Shown in pieces: positions 7,098 through 63,610 of a stretch of 63,610 nt of DNA (positions are counted from its first letter, which is position 1; each line of letters begins with the position of its first letter). A model generated the notes under the pieces. It was not told the DNA's origin, searched no databases, and saw nothing but the letters and a program-made list of their open reading frames with translations. The translations under genes were made by a program, and so were the position numbers. Source of the stretch: Thiofilum flexile DSM 14609 (GTDB taxonomy: Bacteria > Pseudomonadota > Gammaproteobacteria > Thiotrichales > Thiotrichaceae); contig NZ_KB904791.1 in the NCBI RefSeq assembly GCF_000380185.1, positions 127,254 to 190,863 of the forward strand. Direction: 5' to 3'.

Positions 7098-7726
7098 CAG
7101 CGTCCGTTTTATCCTGCACTGAATTACTGACTCTAATTCGCCAACGTGATACTAAACAACGACAACTCATTGCACTTGCAGCGCCCCCCGCTGCGGGTAA
7201 AAGTACACTGGCACATCAATTGGTAATGGCGTTGAATCAGGGGCAAAATGAATGTGCTAAGGTAATTCCTATGGATGGGTTTCATTTAGATAATCGTATT
7301 TTAACCGAGCGTGGTTTACTGACACGCAAAGGCTCACCTGAAACGTTTGATGCGTTGGGTTTTATCCATTTAATTAAACGCTTAAAAACTGAAAAAGAAG
7401 TGATTATTCCCGTCTTTGATCGGGAACGTGATTTAGCATTAGCAGGGGCGGAAGTTGTACAAGAGCAGCATAAGATACTCATAGTCGAGGGTAATTACTT
7501 ATTATTACAGCGCGAGCCTTGGCAACAACTCCATGCTTTATGGGATTTAAGTGTTTGGATTGAGGCTGAGACTGCCCTATTGGAACGGCGTTTAATAGAG
7601 CGTTGGCTTGGCTATGGGCTGAGTGAGGAAACCGCGAAAAGTAAAGCATTACTCAATGACTTACCTAATGCGTATACGATTATTAACGAATCAAGGCCAG
7701 CCGATTATATACTAAAGGATTTTTAA
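7094..7726 (+). CDS. P-loop nucleoside/sugar kinase (YggC/FrcK-like)
   Basis: The 210-aa protein has a Walker A motif APPAAGKSTLAHQL near residue 30, then PMDGFHLDN and FDRERDLA. These are characteristic of the uridine kinase/pantothenate kinase-like family that includes E. coli YggC and the putative fructose-import kinase FrcK. The likely reaction is ATP-dependent phosphorylation of a small molecule in the cytoplasm. The start overlaps the stop of the tannase-like gene by 4 bp. Confidence 0.8.
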   Translation: MTASVLSCTELLTLIRQRDTKQRQLIALAAPPAAGKSTLAHQLVMALNQGQNECAKVIPMDGFHLDNRILTERGLLTRKGSPETFDALGFIHLIKRLKTEKEVIIPVFDRERDLALAGAEVVQEQHKILIVEGNYLLLQREPWQQLHALWDLSVWIEAETALLERRLIERWLGYGLSEETAKSKALLNDLPNAYTIINESRPADYILKDF

Positions 7727-7763
7727 AAGCGCTTTAAGCTTATACTCAAAGCGCTTATTAGGG

Positions 7764-8477
7764 CTAAGCCATATTCTGTGCAGCAAAATCCCAATTGATT
7801 AGTTTATCTAAAACAGCCGTGACATAATCCGCACGCTTATTTTGATAATCCAGATAATAGGCATGTTCCCAAACATCGATGGTTAATAAGGGTTTTAAGC
7901 CATCGGTTAAAGGGGTATTGGCATTGCCCGTTTTGACCACTTTAAGTTTATCACCGTCTTTTACTAACCATGCCCAACCACTACCAAATTGACTAGTAGC
8001 CGCCTTTTGTAGCTCGGCTTTGGCGGCATCCACACTGCCAAAAGACTCTTCTAATTTCGCTTTTAAAGCTGCTGGCGGTTCACCACCGCCATTAGGCTTT
8101 AAGCTATTCCAATAAAAAGTATGATTCCACACTTGTGCCGCATTATTAAAAATGGCGGTATTATCCTCTTTGCCCACGGTCTCAGTAATGATTTTCTCTA
8201 AAGTTAGATCAGCAAAGGGTGTACCTGGAATGAGTTTATTTAAGTTATCGACATAGGCTTTATGATGTTTGCCATAATGGAAGCCCATGGTATTCGCCGA
8301 AATCACTGGCTCTAGCGCATTATCCGCATAAGGTAAGGTGGGCAGTGTAATAGGCGTCGACTCAGCACGTGCCATTTTCGCCCACGACCCTAAAGTAGAA
8401 CCTGCGATTAAACCCGCGCCTAGCATTAAAAACTTACGCCGACTCATTATCGTATTCGGTACAGACAGGGTAGCCAT
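7764..8477 (-). CDS. sodB: superoxide dismutase, Fe-type, Tat-exported
   Basis: The ATG at 8477 is preceded by AAAGGAG. Residues 10-38 form a twin-arginine signal ([13 protein letters not shown]... ending ARAES). The mature part has all metal ligands: the His in [11 protein letters not shown], the His in [11 protein letters not shown], and the Asp and His in [13 protein letters not shown]. Gln/Gly patterning (GSGWAWLV) is typical of Fe/Mn SOD. It dismutates superoxide, here probably in the periplasm or envelope, whereas most SodB proteins are cytoplasmic. It is the last gene of a minus-strand run that starts upstream of dapA. Confidence 0.92.
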
Positions 8478-55388: not shown

Positions 55389-57641
55389 ATGAGTGATCGC
55401 CCCATTGCTCATGTGCGTTTTGATGCACAAGGAAAGCCCATTGAACATTGGTTAGATGAACATTTGCAGAAAGTGGCACAACTCGCTTCTGGTTATGCAA
55501 CTGATTTTAAGAGTCATGAGTGGGCTTATGTAGCAGGGCTTTGGCATGATCTGGGTAAGTATAATCCGGCCTTTCAAGACTATATCTGTGATAAAACAGG
55601 TTATGAACGTGAAAATGCTCATATTGAGCTGGCAAACAACAGTAAAGGTAAAGTCAACCACTCCGCAGCCGGTGCGCTCTATGCGGTTAAACAGCATAAG
55701 CAATTAGGCTTGCCACTGGCTTATTTAATTGCGGGGCATCATGCGGGTTTACCTGATTGGACTAAAACGGCTGAGTCTGAGGGGCGTTCGTTAGCTGAAA
55801 TACTTGAGGAAACTGAGCATCTAGACAAAGCCTTACAGGTAGATGTACCTAGCTCCATTCTTAAGCAACCGTTACCTAAAACAGCGCCTAGAGGTGAGTC
55901 TCATGAATATGCGCTGTGGATAAGAATGCTATTTTCTAGCCTTGTGGATGCCGATTTTCTGGATACAGAAGCGTTTATGCAGCCGCAGCAGTTTGCACAG
56001 CGGGGCAAATATCCTGATTTAGCCACCTTACTGCAGCGCTTTAATGAGCATATGCAGTCCTTTGCTGTACAAGCTCGACCTAGCAAGGTGAATGAACTGC
56101 GTACCCAAGTGCTACAACAGTGTCGAGCAGCAGCACAACAACCGAGTGGTATTTTCTCGCTCACTGTGCCGACGGGTGGGGGTAAAACGCTATCAGGTAT
56201 GGCCTTTGCTTTAGAGCAGGCGGTGAAATATCAGAAAAAACGCATTATTTATGCCATTCCCTTTACCAGCATTATTGAACAAACCGCCACCATCTATCGT
56301 TCAATTTTGGGGGACTGTGTCATTGAGCATCATAGCAATTTAGATGTGAGTGACCCCGAACGTGAAACGGCTCAAAGTCGGCTAGCATCTGAAAATTGGG
56401 ACGCCCCCATTATTGTCACCACGAATGTGCAGCTTTTTGAATCCCTATTTGCCAGTCGGACGAGCCGTTGTCGCAAATTGCATAATCTTGCCAATAGCGT
56501 AATTGTGCTAGATGAGGCACAACTGTTACCGCCGGAGTTTCTGAATCCCATTTTGAGCATAATGAAAAGCTTAGTAGCACATTATGGGGTGACATTTGTC
56601 TTGTCTACGGCTACACAACCTGCTTTGCAAAGCCTATATGATCCTTTTAATAAGCCTATTTTAAAGGGGTTTGACGCAAAGCAGGTTACTGAAATTATTC
56701 CTAATTGTGAGCAACTCTTTAATGATTTAGAGCGGGTTACGGTCGTCATACCAGATGATTTAAGTCTTGAGCGCAATTGGGAGGATATTGCAGCAGAGAT
56801 GATGGAGCATGAAGCGGTATTGGTCATTGTGAATACGAAAAGCCAAGCCGCTGAGCTGTGCCGTTTACTACCACCGGACACCTATTATTTGAGTACTAAT
56901 CTTTGTGGAGCGCATCGCTCGGAAAAACTACAAGAGATTCGAGATAAACTTAAAACGAAACAACCCTTACGAGTAGTCAGTACCCAATTAATCGAGGCGG
57001 GGGTTGATGTGGATTTTCCGGTCGTGTATCGAGCATTAACGGGACTCGATTCGATTGCTCAAGCGGCTGGGCGCTGTAATCGCGAGGGCTTATTAACAAA
57101 GGGTAAGGTTATCGTGTTTATTCCGCCCAATAATCATAAGCTCAAAGGGCATTTAGGATTATCGGCGAGTGTTAGCAAAAGTCTCTTGCCACTTTTCACT
57201 GAACCACCCTTATATTACCGCCATTTCAAAACCTATTTTGAGCACTATTACACTAAAACCAAATCACGGGATGCTCAGGGTATTGAAGAGCTACTCACTA
57301 AAGATGCTCGTAGTCTTAAGATTCAATTTCGTACCGCCGCCAATCGTTTTCGCTTGATTAAAGAAGAGGGTCATGCCGTGTTAGTCCCTTATGGTGAAGG
57401 TGAAAAACTAATTGAGCAACTCAAAATATTAGGCAGCTCACGCTGGCTGCTGCGTAAACTGCAACGCTATACCGTCACGATTCGTGAGCAAGATAAAAAC
57501 CGCTTACGAAATAACGGTGATATTCGTGAACTCAAGGAGTTAGCTGGGGTGTATGAGCTAGTGACGTCAGGGATTTATGACTCAAAGCTGGGTTTGATGA
57601 GTGACCCTTTTCAACTAGATCCTGAAGATTTACTTTGGTAA
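55389..57641 (+). CDS. cas3: Cas3 helicase-nuclease, type I-C
   Basis: The 750-aa protein has an N-terminal HD nuclease (HD pair at residues 53-54 in LWHDLGKYNP, later NHSAAGALYAV and IAGHHAGLPDW). The SF2 helicase has Walker A PTGGGKT near residue 263, DEAQ in VLDEAQLLPPEFL near residue 375, STATQPAL, and motif VI AQAAGRCNREG. It unwinds and degrades DNA marked by Cascade. It is the first gene of a type I-C operon; a 277-bp gap with regulatory structure separates it from cas5c. Confidence 0.96.
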   Translation: MSDRPIAHVRFDAQGKPIEHWLDEHLQKVAQLASGYATDFKSHEWAYVAGLWHDLGKYNPAFQDYICDKTGYERENAHIELANNSKGKVNHSAAGALYAVKQHKQLGLPLAYLIAGHHAGLPDWTKTAESEGRSLAEILEETEHLDKALQVDVPSSILKQPLPKTAPRGESHEYALWIRMLFSSLVDADFLDTEAFMQPQQFAQRGKYPDLATLLQRFNEHMQSFAVQARPSKVNELRTQVLQQCRAAAQQPSGIFSLTVPTGGGKTLSGMAFALEQAVKYQKKRIIYAIPFTSIIEQTATIYRSILGDCVIEHHSNLDVSDPERETAQSRLASENWDAPIIVTTNVQLFESLFASRTSRCRKLHNLANSVIVLDEAQLLPPEFLNPILSIMKSLVAHYGVTFVLSTATQPALQSLYDPFNKPILKGFDAKQVTEIIPNCEQLFNDLERVTVVIPDDLSLERNWEDIAAEMMEHEAVLVIVNTKSQAAELCRLLPPDTYYLSTNLCGAHRSEKLQEIRDKLKTKQPLRVVSTQLIEAGVDVDFPVVYRALTGLDSIAQAAGRCNREGLLTKGKVIVFIPPNNHKLKGHLGLSASVSKSLLPLFTEPPLYYRHFKTYFEHYYTKTKSRDAQGIEELLTKDARSLKIQFRTAANRFRLIKEEGHAVLVPYGEGEKLIEQLKILGSSRWLLRKLQRYTVTIREQDKNRLRNNGDIRELKELAGVYELVTSGIYDSKLGLMSDPFQLDPEDLLW

Positions 57642-57759
57642 TCAAGATGATGATTATGATAGCCACTAATATTCCCCAAAAGCGTGAAGCTGGCAGAGCT
57701 GTACAGAAAATACGTAGTTCTTTAATAATTTTTGAGTAATCAGTTTTTAGGCTATTCAT
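57532..57759 (-). CDS. candidate CreT-like small membrane protein, 75 aa
   Basis: The minus-strand ATG at 57759-57757 has AGGA (57769-57766) exactly 6 nt upstream. A promoter-like TTGCTT (57822-57817), 18-nt spacer and TATCAT (57798-57793) precede it. The N-terminal 40 residues lie in the cas3-cas5 gap: an amphipathic start (MNSLKTDYSKIIKELRIF) and a strong hydrophobic helix (FWGILVAIIIIILI). The remaining 35 residues are antisense to the cas3 end. The RBS and leader are covered by the site that matches the pseudo-spacer of the crRNA-like element. A toxin role is inferred from this arrangement; no homologue is recognised. Confidence 0.5.
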   Translation of the reverse strand: MNSLKTDYSKIIKELRIFCTALPASRFWGILVAIIIIILITKVNLQDLVEKGHSSNPALSHKSLTSLAHTPQLTP

Positions 57760-57764
57760 AACAT

Positions 57765-57783
57765 TTCCTAGTAATTGAAATTT
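57765..57783 (+). promoter_or_regulatory. TTC-PAM target site matching the pseudo-spacer
   Basis: TTC at 57765-57767 is followed by CTAGTAATTGAAATTT (57768-57783), identical to the first 16 nt after the pseudo-repeat (57837-57852). TTC is the canonical type I-C PAM and is placed on the correct side. The site covers the RBS of the minus-strand small ORF and lies just upstream of both predicted promoters. Confidence 0.8.
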
Positions 57784-57788
57784 AAGGC

Positions 57789-57797
57789 TGATATGAT
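57789..57797 (+). promoter_or_regulatory. extended -10 promoter reading into pseudo-repeat and cas5c
   Basis: TGATATGAT is a full TGnTATnAT extended -10. Transcription would start near 57804, inside the first bases of the pseudo-repeat stem, and can run on into cas5c. There is no good -35, as is usual for extended -10 promoters. The PAM-flanked target lies at about -36 to -21. Confidence 0.55.
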
Positions 57798-57799
57798 AG

Positions 57800-57903
57800 A
57801 ACCTCACTTGATAAAAAAGCAAGTGTGGGTTGAAACCTAGTAATTGAAATTTTCTCTCAATCGCTATGCGGGCATAGTAAATCTATGCCCACTTTTGAGC
57901 TGT
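57800..57903 (+). ncRNA. crRNA-like (CreA/Cas-autorepressor-type) RNA
   Basis: Pseudo-repeat 1 (57800-57836) keeps the I-C repeat layout: a 6-bp stem (CACTTG/CAAGTG) whose 3' strand sits in the same register as the array stem, and the 11-nt handle TGGGTTGAAAC, 10 of 11 identical to the array handle. The pseudo-spacer starts at 57837 and is about 30 nt. A second hairpin GGGCATAG/CTATGCCC (57870-57890) stands where repeat 2 would be, with a decayed handle. Cas5c cleaving at the stem base would release a guide whose first 16 nt match the TTC-flanked site at 57768. Confidence 0.72.
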
Positions 57904-57918
57904 TCTTAGGAGGTATTG

Positions 57919-58590
57919 ATGAGCTATAGCTTTTGTTTAGAGGTATCCGGTGACTTTGCTTGTTTCACTCGTCCTGAAATGAAGGTAGAGCGCGTGTCTT
58001 ATGATGTCATTACCCCATCCGCTGCTCGTGCGATCTTTGAAGCTATTCTGTGGAGGCCTGCTATTCGTTGGCATATACGCAAGATTGAAGTGCTTGAGCC
58101 GATTCGTTGGATGAATTTGCGCCGTAATGAAGTGGCTAGCGTTATCCCAACCGGAGCGGTCAAATCAGCCATGAAACAAGGCCAAGGACAACTCGGTTTA
58201 TATATCGAAGAAGACCGCCAACAACGCGCTGGATTGTTTTTGCGGGATGTGCGCTATCGATTACATGCTGATTTTGAATTGCTCAACCCCGATGCGGATA
58301 ACACCGCCATCAAATTTGCTGAAATGTTTAAGCGCCGTGCTGCCAAAGGGCAATGCTTTAATCAACCCTATTTAGGTACACGCGAGTTTTCCTGCGCTTT
58401 TCGTTTGATTGAAACAAAAGAGCCTAATAAGACACCGGGCGAGTTATTGGGAAAACGGGATTTAGGTTGGATGTTATATGACATGGATTTTACTGATACA
58501 GAAAATCCTATGCCGCGTTTTTTTCATGCGACTTTGCAAGATGGTGTATTAAATGTGCCTGCTTGGAATAGTGAGGAGATACGTGGATGA
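57919..58590 (+). CDS. cas5c: Cas5c (Cas5d), crRNA-processing subunit
   Basis: The start is the ATG at 57919 with AGGAGG at 57908-57913. The 223-aa protein opens MSYSFCLEVSGDFACFTRPE and has YDVITPSAARAIFEAILWRP, typical of Cas5d. In type I-C this protein replaces Cas6, cleaving pre-crRNA at the 3' base of the repeat hairpin and holding the 11-nt 5' handle. It overlaps cas8c by 4 bp. Confidence 0.95.
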   Translation: MSYSFCLEVSGDFACFTRPEMKVERVSYDVITPSAARAIFEAILWRPAIRWHIRKIEVLEPIRWMNLRRNEVASVIPTGAVKSAMKQGQGQLGLYIEEDRQQRAGLFLRDVRYRLHADFELLNPDADNTAIKFAEMFKRRAAKGQCFNQPYLGTREFSCAFRLIETKEPNKTPGELLGKRDLGWMLYDMDFTDTENPMPRFFHATLQDGVLNVPAWNSEEIRG

Positions 58591-60359
58591 TTTTGCAAGC
58601 CTTATACGACTATTACCAACGCAAAGCCCAAGACCCTGAATCAGCACTCGCTCCGTCTGGTTTTGAGTATAAAGAAATTCCTTTTATTTTAGAGCTGCGT
58701 GAGGATGGTAGTTTAAATCAAATTGAAGATACTCGTTTCATTGAAAATAAAAAGAAACGGGCAAAATCCGAGCGAGTTCCTCAGGGGGTAAAGAAAACCT
58801 CCGGTGTTGCTGCTAATTTACTATGGGATAACGCTGAATATGTATTAGGTATTGATACCAAAGGTAAACCAGAGCGAATCAAAGAGCAGCAAGCCGCTTT
58901 TTTAGAAAAAATCAAAGCATTAAATTTAGCAGATAAAGATAAAGGCATTGCAGCGGTTATTCATTTTCTAGAGCAGCTAGACCACACTGTTTTAGCGCAA
59001 AACCCACTCTGGGAAGAAATTGTTAAAACCAATCCTAATTTAACCTTTCGCTTACAAGGTCAAACCTATTTAGTTTGTCAAAGTCGTGTCGTGCAATCGG
59101 CTATAGCTGCTAATGAAAGTGATGAGACTAACAAAAGTATTTGTTTAATTACAGGTGAAGAGGCTGAAATTGAGCGTTTACACCCTGCTATTAGAGGAGT
59201 GTGGGGAGCACAAGTTGCTGGGGCTAATATTATTTCTTTTAATCTGAGCGCCTTTACTTCTTATGGTAAAAGCCAAAGCTTTAATGCACCTGTGAGTAAA
59301 GAAGCCGCCTTTGCCTATACCACAGCACTCAATCATTTATTAAGTAAAGATTCTAAACAGCGCATGCAGGTAGGAGATGCTTCAACAGTATTTTGGGCGA
59401 GCAAAGAGAATGCCTTAGAGGATAGTTTTGCTGCTTTATTTGGTGCAGGAGATAGTAATAAGGATGATCCTGATCGAAGTACGGCTGTAGTGAAATCCTT
59501 ATATGAAGCGGTTGAAAAGCATGGGCGTACACCCGTACTCAGTGAAGAAACCTTATTTTATATTTTAGGCTTAGCACCGAATGCGGCACGAATCAGTATT
59601 CGTTTTTGGCATGCGGCGACGGTACGAGAGGTCAGTCAGCGCATTGTTGAGCATTTTAAAAATTTAGAAATAATTCGTGGTGCTAATGATAAGGAGTATT
59701 TACCTCTATGGTTGCTTTTAAGATCTATTGCTCACTTGAATAAAGCAGAAAATGTACCGGCAGAGCTTGCTGGTGAGATTTTCCGACGTATTCTTTTGGG
59801 ACTACCTTATCCTGAAACTTTACTAACCTCAGCTCTTAGACGTAATTATGCTGAGCAAACTGTTACTTATGAGCGTGCTGCCATCATCAAAGCCTATTTA
59901 ATACGGAATTTAAAGGAGAAAGTAACTGTGTCATTAGATCGTAATAATACCCATATTGGGTATAATCTAGGTCGATTATTTGCCATATTGGAGCGGCTTC
60001 AAGCTGAAGCACATGAGCGTGATCTGAACTCTGATATTTCAGATGACTTTTATAGTTCTGCCGCAACTACACCCATTACAGTTTTCCCTACTTTAGTTAA
60101 ATTACATACACACCACCTAAGCAAATTAGCTAAAAAGAAGTATAAGCGTGCACAAGACTTTGAAAGTTGGTTTAGTGAAATTTATTCTTGTATATCTGCA
60201 CCAGCACCCAGTGTAGAGTGCGTTTACCCTAAAACCTTAAGTCTTGCTGAGCAGGGTAATTTTGCGGTGGGCTTTTATCATCAAAAAAAGGCTTTATCTC
60301 ATAGTTTTCAGAAAGCCATTGAACAAACCAATTCTATTATGCAAGGAGATATAGCATGA
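58587..60359 (+). CDS. cas8c: Cas8c (Csd1), Cascade large subunit
   Basis: The 590-aa protein opens [20 protein letters not shown] and contains [32 protein letters not shown] (the Csd1 signature) and [19 protein letters not shown]. It recognises the TTC PAM and may supply Cas11c from an internal start, as in other I-C systems. It overlaps cas7c by 4 bp. Confidence 0.95.
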
Positions 60360-61246
60360 GTTTGAATCATCGATATGACTTTGTTTTATTGTTTGATGTA
60401 AAAGATGGTAATCCTAATGGTGATCCTGATGCGGGCAACTTACCAAGGGTCGATGCAGAATCAGGACATGGCTTAGTCACTGATGTCAGTTTGAAACGTA
60501 AGATTCGTAATTTTGTAGGGATGATGTATGCAGAGCAACCACCTTATGAAATTTATGTAAAAGAAAAATCAGTTTTAAATCTTCAACATGTTCGTGCCTA
60601 TAAATCTTTGGATATGGAAGACTTATTGGAACCAGATAAAAATGGGCATTTAAAATCCAAAGGAAAAGCAGAAGATGCTGATAAGGCTCGCCGTTGGATG
60701 TGCCAAAACTTTTACGATGTGCGGACTTTTGGGGCTGTGATGTCCACAGGGGTAAATTGTGGTCAGGTACGTGGACCTGTACAAATGACTTTTGGACGCT
60801 CTATTGATCAAATTATTGTAAGTGAATTTGCAATTACACGTATGGCTGTTGCGACAGAAAAAGAAGCAGAAGACCAAAGTGGAGGGAATCGTACTATAGG
60901 ACGCAAATTCACCGTACCTTATGGTTTATATGTGGCACATGGTTTTGTCTCAGCGCATTTAGCCGATCAAACGGGGTTTTCTGAGGAAGACTTAGCGTTG
61001 TTATGGCAATCATTAGCTCAAATGTTTGAGCATGATCGTTCAGCCGCACGCGGCGAAATGGCAACTCGTGGGCTTTATGTATTTAAGCACGAAAGCAAGT
61101 TAGGCAATGCCCCCGCTTATGATTTATTTAAATGTATTAAGGCCGAAAAACAGGTCGATGTACCCCGTCATTTTGAGGATTATGTGGTGACGGTTGACAC
61201 CAGCCACTTACCGAGTGGTGTAGAGCTAAATCGACTAGTGGGCTAA
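60356..61246 (+). CDS. cas7c: Cas7c (Csd2), Cascade backbone
   Basis: The 296-aa protein has [31 protein letters not shown] and [13 protein letters not shown]-like segments ([20 protein letters not shown]), which define Csd2. It polymerises along the crRNA. Confidence 0.96.
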
Positions 61247-63500: not shown

Positions 63501-63610
63501 ATTCTCCCAGCTAATTAAGTTGGGAGTGGATTGAAACTATCATCCTTAGTTAAATACATCTCTAGTTGATATTCTCCCAGCTAATTAAGTTGGGAGTGGA
63601 TTGAAACCGT
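63501..63610 (+). CRISPR. type I-C CRISPR array, leader end
   Basis: Two 37-nt repeats at 63501-63537 and 63571-63607 are separated by a 33-nt spacer. The stem CTCCCA/TGGGAG is followed by TGGATTGAAAC, the usual I-C-type 3' tail. The array runs on beyond the window. It lies directly downstream of cas2 in the same orientation, so this is the leader-proximal end. Confidence 0.96.

Follow-up and report, generated by a model that had tools for sequence, protein, structure and literature searches.

Why should a type I-C locus carry, in the gap that separates cas3 from cas5c, a degenerate repeat whose adjoining guide matches a site in the very same gap? The question is raised by a stretch of 63,610 nucleotides (nt) from Thiofilum flexile DSM 14609 (contig NZ_KB904791.1, positions 127,254 to 190,863), in the following called the window, which ends in a type I-C locus of clustered regularly interspaced short palindromic repeats (CRISPR) and cas genes. 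The gap, 277 nt long (57642–57918), contains a putative gene for a CRISPR RNA (crRNA)-like guide, a target site flanked by a protospacer adjacent motif (PAM) and the upstream region of a small, divergently oriented open reading frame (ORF). Judged from sequence, this arrangement is probably a CRISPR-guarded module resembling a toxin-antitoxin (TA) system of the CreTA kind, with a phage-related membrane protein as the candidate toxin.

Anatomy of the guide element

The sequence CTAGTAATTGAAATTT at 57768–57783 recurs at 57837–57852 on the plus strand. All 16 positions are identical and position 17 differs. The first copy, which is preceded by the PAM TTC (57765–57767), represents the target; it is situated 69 nt upstream of the guide copy, and a full protospacer of 33–35 nt would end near 57802. 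The second copy forms the first 16 nt of a pseudo-spacer (57837–57869) following a degenerate repeat, ψ-R1 (57800–57836). This repeat matches the array repeat (63501–63537) at 20 of 37 positions. Within the handle (57826–57836) 10 of 11 bases are kept (TGGGTTGAAAC compared to TGGATTGAAAC in the array), and the first 26 positions match at 10. The stem CACTTG/CAAGTG (57805–57810/57820–57825) is a different complementary pair from that of the array repeat and stops, as in the array repeat, exactly at the start of the handle. The fold of the 37-nt repeat has a z-score of −3.5 relative to shuffled sequences, and a stem of this length beside the handle occurs in 4.6% of shuffles. A second hairpin (57870–57890), which may be a second degenerate repeat (ψ-R2) or terminator-like and lacks a strong T run, begins 33 nt after the handle, at repeat-like spacing.

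These traits had been pointed out in a first-pass annotation of the stretch, which described the 16-nt identity to a TTC-flanked site, the handle with 10 of 11 bases, the preserved stem register with its replaced stem sequence and the second hairpin. Direct reading, shuffling, alignment of the repeats and folding bear out each of them. In 2000 dinucleotide shuffles of the cas3–cas5c gap, taken as 275 nt, the longest TTC-preceded direct repeat measured 12 nt (once) and most commonly 5 nt, never 16, confirming that the self-match is real and beyond chance. Throughout the host genome the 19-nt sequence of PAM and target has one exact site; the guide copy is the only site with two mismatches, and two other sites carry three. 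A search of 57500–58100 against Rfam returned no family at an expectation value (E) of up to 1.

Covariation of guide and target in type I-C loci

For comparison, Cas5c loci were drawn from relatives and the family, from the genome_contigs collection and from 369 genomes sampled evenly across the class. Seven loci were removed as duplicates, and L013, L014, L122 and L123, which have no Cas5 match to the window query, as well as G144, with a partial match, were left out. The 126 loci form 121 clusters at 95% Cas5c identity, and in 116 the end of cas3 was found. These 116 non-redundant cas3–cas5 junctions comprise 80 with a gap below 100 nt and 36 with a gap of 100 nt or more. Of the 36 long gaps, 19 hold a handle-like sequence and, following it, a guide with a seed match to a site beside TTC within that gap. 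This fraction is not an unbiased prevalence, since the loci from genome_contigs are the best 80 of 583 relatives.

Each trinucleotide was tried as the PAM in stretches of at least 150 nt on both strands, with 9 of 10 seed matches required and positions 6 and 12 left free. TTC yielded 19 loci and any other trinucleotide two at most; elements without TTC are found in L050 (Nitrospira), with TTT, and in L156, with GTT. A target scan of one strand misses L143 and L147, both of which are detected on scanning two strands. From one locus to the next, guide and target change in sequence but keep matching each other; the relation is therefore covariation and not one shared sequence, although related loci (e.g. 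L017/L018 and L083/L141) are not fully independent. The first-pass annotation had made its case depend on TTC, match and handle staying together in relatives, and together they stay while the sequences change.

The distribution of mismatches is equally uneven. In the 21 elements, each with no more than three mismatches in positions 1–12, 28 of 32 mismatches in this region fall at position 6 or 12. A scan that leaves these two positions free favours mismatches there; an earlier scan for 9 matches out of 12 without position bias gave 19 gap matches (including two secondary, off-register ones in L057 and L067) with 8 mismatches at position 6, 13 at position 12 and 8 at the other ten positions together. 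As in the window, the match in L067 extends over 16 of 16 positions and then stops. The hairpin beside the handle reaches a mean of 5.8 in the 21 elements as against 3.3 in shuffles, though the stem sequences differ, and downstream folds of 14 elements mostly display a strong hairpin at a similar distance, L050 being an exception.

Gaps of less than 100 nt offer too little room for such an element. A two-strand scan of 83 complete short-gap loci (80 clusters; 812,606 bases) detected none at the cas3–cas5 junction. Seven of these loci have a match elsewhere: six are far from the junction and array- or repeat-like (not checked singly), and that of L029 lies inside cas3 and has a poor handle. Within the class sample, 7 of the 35 genomes with Cas5c carry the element, namely G000, G004, G017, G312, G262 and G136 with TTC and G197 with GTT, the cas3 match of the last stopping about 1.2 kilobases (kb) short of cas5. 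A probable further element, seen by eye upstream of cas5 in L144, has its guide ACGTTATGTTT on the minus strand, a TTC-flanked match on the plus strand and a mismatch at position 12; it is situated outside of the scanned stretch and was not counted.

The divergent small ORF

On the minus strand, an ORF of 75 codons (57532–57759), the candidate creT, encodes a predicted small membrane protein. Its start at 57759 is 9 nt from the target, which is positioned between the guide gene and the ORF, and its C-terminal part is antisense to the 3′ end of cas3. ORFs of this type are found at 14 of the 19 TTC loci, in all 14 cases divergent from the guide and with the target in between. The guide reads towards cas5 in 6 of these loci and away from it in 8. 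The cassette may thus face cas5 either way, which makes the ORF a more constant partner of the guide than cas5. The first-pass annotation had seen in the element a type I-C member of the class of crRNA-like repressors, which agrees with the joint retention of TTC, seed and handle; the divergent ORF had escaped it, and this ORF renders guarding of a toxin the stronger reading compared to plain autorepression of cas genes.

Members of the ORF family are 38–75 residues long. Their consensus is close to MDWxxxxxExRLLLxQLPxxRFWG, after which comes a hydrophobic segment. An AlphaFold2 model of low confidence (mean predicted local distance difference test score 70.6) contains two helices, residues 3–21 and 24–52, predicted to be one amphipathic and one membrane helix. 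The ratio of non-synonymous to synonymous substitution rates (dN/dS) is 0.31 (window and L003), 0.28, 0.18 and 0.05 in four close pairs, which shows selection at the protein level in such pairs. In a fifth close pair synonymous sites are saturated, and the more distant pair of window and L017 gives 0.13. The family is present in 5 of the 369 class genomes; all five belong to the 35 with Cas5c and carry the ORF between cas3 and cas5. In a search of the phylum, 3 of 398 genomes matched, the window and in addition L113 and L114. The latter two were rejected as members, their matches being chance-like, hydrophobic and without any cas match in the surrounding 3 kb.

Guide and ORF also appear to decay jointly. 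In L007 (1050–1492), as read by eye, a short element whose ends AGGAAGTTCCAAG are inverted apparently interrupts the guide region, and the homologue of the ORF is disrupted. L027 and L028 share at least 95% identity in cas5; L027 yielded no guide, and its ORF, again by eye, reads from GTG without an in-frame ATG at the usual place.

Searches with the 14 members in Pfam and NCBIfam and with the window protein in PADLOC gave no convincing known family, and these searches together with PHROGs (14 members) no convincing known toxin family. At a loose limit of E 1, phrog_6632, which groups phage proteins of unknown function, matched seven of the 14 members (best E 2.4e-6; window alone 6e-4). Profile–profile comparison with six phage members, two of them nearly identical, resulted in a probability of 97.9 and an E of 3.2e-13. 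The phage proteins share the homologous N-terminal motif and the membrane segment; they differ in being phage-borne, near lysis or tail genes, with no cas genes among the annotated neighbours. In eight phage records the gene is located between lysozyme and Rz (three records) or among tail or baseplate genes (five). Small membrane proteins resembling phrog_6632, sometimes unannotated, were seen in the phages L110, L111, L112 and L115–L119.

Several loci present other arrangements. L143 and L147 display a second small ORF type (GVQ...KGKV...FWG), with the target near a TTGACA and mismatches again at positions 6 and 12. In L057 and L069 guide and target pair well but no membrane ORF was seen; the guide may be partnered there by an RNA toxin or by some tiny ORF. 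L032 (Entotheonella; 7827–7991) and L050 (Nitrospira; 7591–7988) have TTGACA upstream and no divergent membrane ORF that could be seen; both are candidate CreR-like autorepressors of type I-C.

Promoter-like and ribosome-binding signals

Inside the protospacer, an extended −10-like sequence, TGATATGAT (57789–57797, plus strand), was recognized by eye and not reported by the −35/−10 consensus scan. It reads towards the guide element and onward to cas5c and could serve the guide gene and possibly cas5c. A consensus sigma-70 scan of 57500–58000 gave one promoter-like site (57700–57729), which does not rise above shuffles, and a terminator scan of the same region found none, including between the guide element and cas5c. 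On the minus strand, a Shine-Dalgarno-like AGGAAA of the small ORF (57764–57769) overlaps the PAM and the first target bases.

Proposed mechanism

Type I-C systems lack Cas6, and Cas5c is their processing enzyme. The gene at 57800–57890 would give rise to a short crRNA-like RNA (CreA), which, given the role of Cas5c, should be cut at the degenerate repeat. A complex of Cas5c, Cas8c and Cas7 (Cascade) would carry this guide RNA, whose seed would base-pair with the site next to TTC at 57768. As the match ends after 16 nt, binding of the complex is expected to occur without destruction by Cas3. In this position it would cover the guide-gene promoter, from which transcription continues in the direction of cas5c, as well as the start region of the divergent ORF, which would thereby be kept silent. 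If Cascade were lost, titrated or blocked by an anti-CRISPR protein, the ORF would be released and the membrane harmed. A phage-related membrane protein under a repressor would most simply be a toxin, and the module may in this way addict its host to the CRISPR system. Since the extended −10 faces cas5c and no terminator was found in between, the cas5c operon may be controlled too, and repression of the cas5c promoter is possible.

More tentatively, and with slightly less than even confidence, the elements could constitute a widespread, undescribed class of type I-C guards. Guides made by Cas5c would repress phage-derived two-helix membrane peptides at a bidirectional promoter that also feeds cas5-8-7. 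The action of an anti-CRISPR protein, or the loss of Cascade, would then have two effects, a rise in cas expression and the release of a membrane-acting killer.

A number of observations weigh against the proposed guarded toxin. Its steps of expression, binding and toxicity are inferred from sequence, and the clearest promoter-like element of the window, found by eye, faces cas5c and not the small ORF. Seventeen of the 36 long gaps contain no TTC element. In the TTC elements of L032, L057 and L069 no ORF of the window type was seen, and in L143 and L147 a different small ORF (50–51 residues; hydropathy peaks 1.5 and 2.4) precedes a co-directional guide whose target is on the other strand; guarding the ORF family is therefore not the only use of the element. 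L027 retains the ORF though no element was found. The family members of L066, L067 and L100 are the weakest, joined mainly by position, a shared R-F and the hydrophobic segment, and dN/dS rises to 0.74 in the more distant pair L003/L017. Regarding the guides, seed mismatches occur at positions 3, 7, 10 and 11 in L003, L083, L141 and L038, only 9 of the 21 elements lie at or below 5% of shuffles in the hairpin test, and the hairpins of L066, L069, L100 and L156 are no better than shuffles.

Alternative explanations

The alternative that survives best is dual control, in which one Cascade site on a bidirectional promoter governs both the toxin-like ORF and the cas5c operon. The protospacer overlaps the promoter-like element of guide and cas5c as well as the ribosome-binding region of the ORF, and in the inverted loci it is the ORF that reads towards cas5; read-through into cas5c is, however, presumed, and cas5c may have other promoters. 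With a likelihood somewhat short of even, dual control overlaps with the guarded toxin, so that the odds of the two are not exclusive.

The small membrane protein may instead be a phage-related accessory, for example for superinfection exclusion or as a defence effector, that is silenced until Cascade is disabled. This is unlikely but deserves consideration, as the phage homologues are small extra genes of lysis or tail regions and the family searches revealed no convincing toxin relative. Against it, guarded toxins have the same design, and at other loci this gap houses TA pairs, neither of which amounts to proof.

Slightly less likely still is a pure autorepressor of the CreR kind, by which the guide would shut the promoter that serves its own gene as well as cas5c-cas8c-cas7 and so sense free Cascade, the small ORF being incidental or a CRISPR accessory. 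The extended −10 reading through the element towards cas5c, the occurrence of elements in L032 and L050 where no divergent membrane ORF was seen and the CreRs reported for types I-B, I-E and V-A in PMC13131331 are in line with this explanation. Against it, close pairs conserve the ORF at the protein level, and ORF and guide are found together whichever way the cassette is turned, so that cas5 is not the constant partner. That the element arose by chance, or is what remains of a former array, as the 20 of 37 retained repeat positions might suggest, is very improbable in view of the shuffles, the TTC specificity, the covariation and the 6/12 pattern; in a remnant, target, PAM and seed would not persist jointly across many loci.

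The remaining locus and other tenants of the gap

The locus at the window end runs in the order cas3, gap, cas5c, cas8c, cas7c, cas4, cas1, cas2 and array start. The best PADLOC models of these genes are Cas3c, Cas5c, Cas8c, Cas7c, Cas4c, Cas1c and Cas2c, which upholds the type I-C assignment of the first-pass annotation. On the plus strand are cas3 (55389–57641; E 1.7e-223), cas5c, the presumed processing enzyme of the guide RNA (57919–58590; E 8.9e-70), cas8c (58587–60359), cas7c (60356–61246) and the start of the array with two 37-nt repeats (63501–63607), where the contig stops with the window and cuts off the array.

In eight clusters with gaps of 754–800 nt, two ORFs resembling an antitoxin and a PIN toxin occupy the same place. 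PhdYefM/PIN-like pairs are situated in the cas3–cas5 gaps of L026, L031, L039, L041, L048, L072, L132, L133 and L134, and a Pfam check of three such proteins, one antitoxin and two PIN, was positive for all three. The cas3–cas5 gap of type I-C loci is hence a recurrent home of TA-like modules, which fits a role in addiction. An apparent remnant of such a pair was noticed in the gap of L009.

Should the proposed module prove true, CRISPR addiction would extend to type I-C, and losing or blocking CRISPR would release a probable self-poison held off by a decoy guide RNA. It would moreover add a candidate protein toxin family related to phage genes, account for many of the long cas3–cas5 gaps and provide a simple reporter for anti-CRISPRs against type I-C. 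With cas6 lacking in type I-C, such a group may readily have been overlooked.

Comparison with known systems

Among the open-licence papers listed in literature searches, none dealt with a module of this kind in type I-C, or with one that has a small membrane toxin. The possibility of a Racr-like solitary phage repeat was set aside, since the element is part of a bacterial cas operon and has its own target. With CreR, as far as presented in PMC12737573 and PMC13131331, the element shares a crRNA-like RNA presumably aimed at a promoter of its own cas locus; the extended −10 seen by eye faces cas5c. However, CreR is generally described without a coupled toxin gene (types I-B, I-E and V-A are named in PMC13131331), whereas here a conserved divergent ORF is present.

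Characteristics of guarded modules of the CreTA and CrePA type are a crRNA-like gene with a degenerate repeat outside the array and a PAM-flanked partial match with seed positions 1–5 and 7–11, both of which are found here (16/16 in the window). In these modules the target is located in the promoter of the adjacent toxin gene; here it sits between guide and ORF in 14 of 14 TTC loci with this type of ORF. In addition, the partner gene of such modules is toxic and its repression requires Cascade and not Cas3, as would be predicted for the present ORF. For the haloarchaeal CreA of type I-B, mutation data in PMC8501985 indicate that positions 1–5 and 7–11 are needed and 6 and 12 are free. The same seed rule, the TTC PAM and a degenerate first repeat connect the present element with the type I-B CreTA, as outlined in PMC8501985 and PMC9458426. 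According to these outlines the latter differs in that it is processed by Cas6, its toxin RNA sequesters a rare tRNA and creT and creA of H. hubeiense form one operon.

The nearest layout is that of the Acinetobacter type I-F CreTA, as portrayed in PMC10097628: it is placed in the gap between cas3 and the effector operon (csy1) and has a degenerate repeat pair, a PAM-flanked partial match and a divergent ORF beyond the target. In that account processing is by Csy4, the PAM is CC and CreT acts as a small RNA that kills bacteria and contains a mini-ORF of 33 bp, in contrast to the conserved membrane protein of 38–75 residues described here. In a strict CreTA, CreT acts as RNA; the low dN/dS of the four close pairs (0.05–0.31) and the conserved peptide point, indirectly, to a protein, and the module is therefore filed as a CreTA variant. 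A protein toxin that has a phage-derived domain and is under guard of a crRNA-like RNA is the hallmark shared, on the candidate level, with CrePA as introduced in PMC12737573. CreP, however, contains a KilA-N domain and acts on FtsZ according to that source, whereas the present candidate is a small membrane protein, and no KilA-N domain was matched in Pfam among the 14 ORF members. The type I-C module probably works like CreTA and CrePA.
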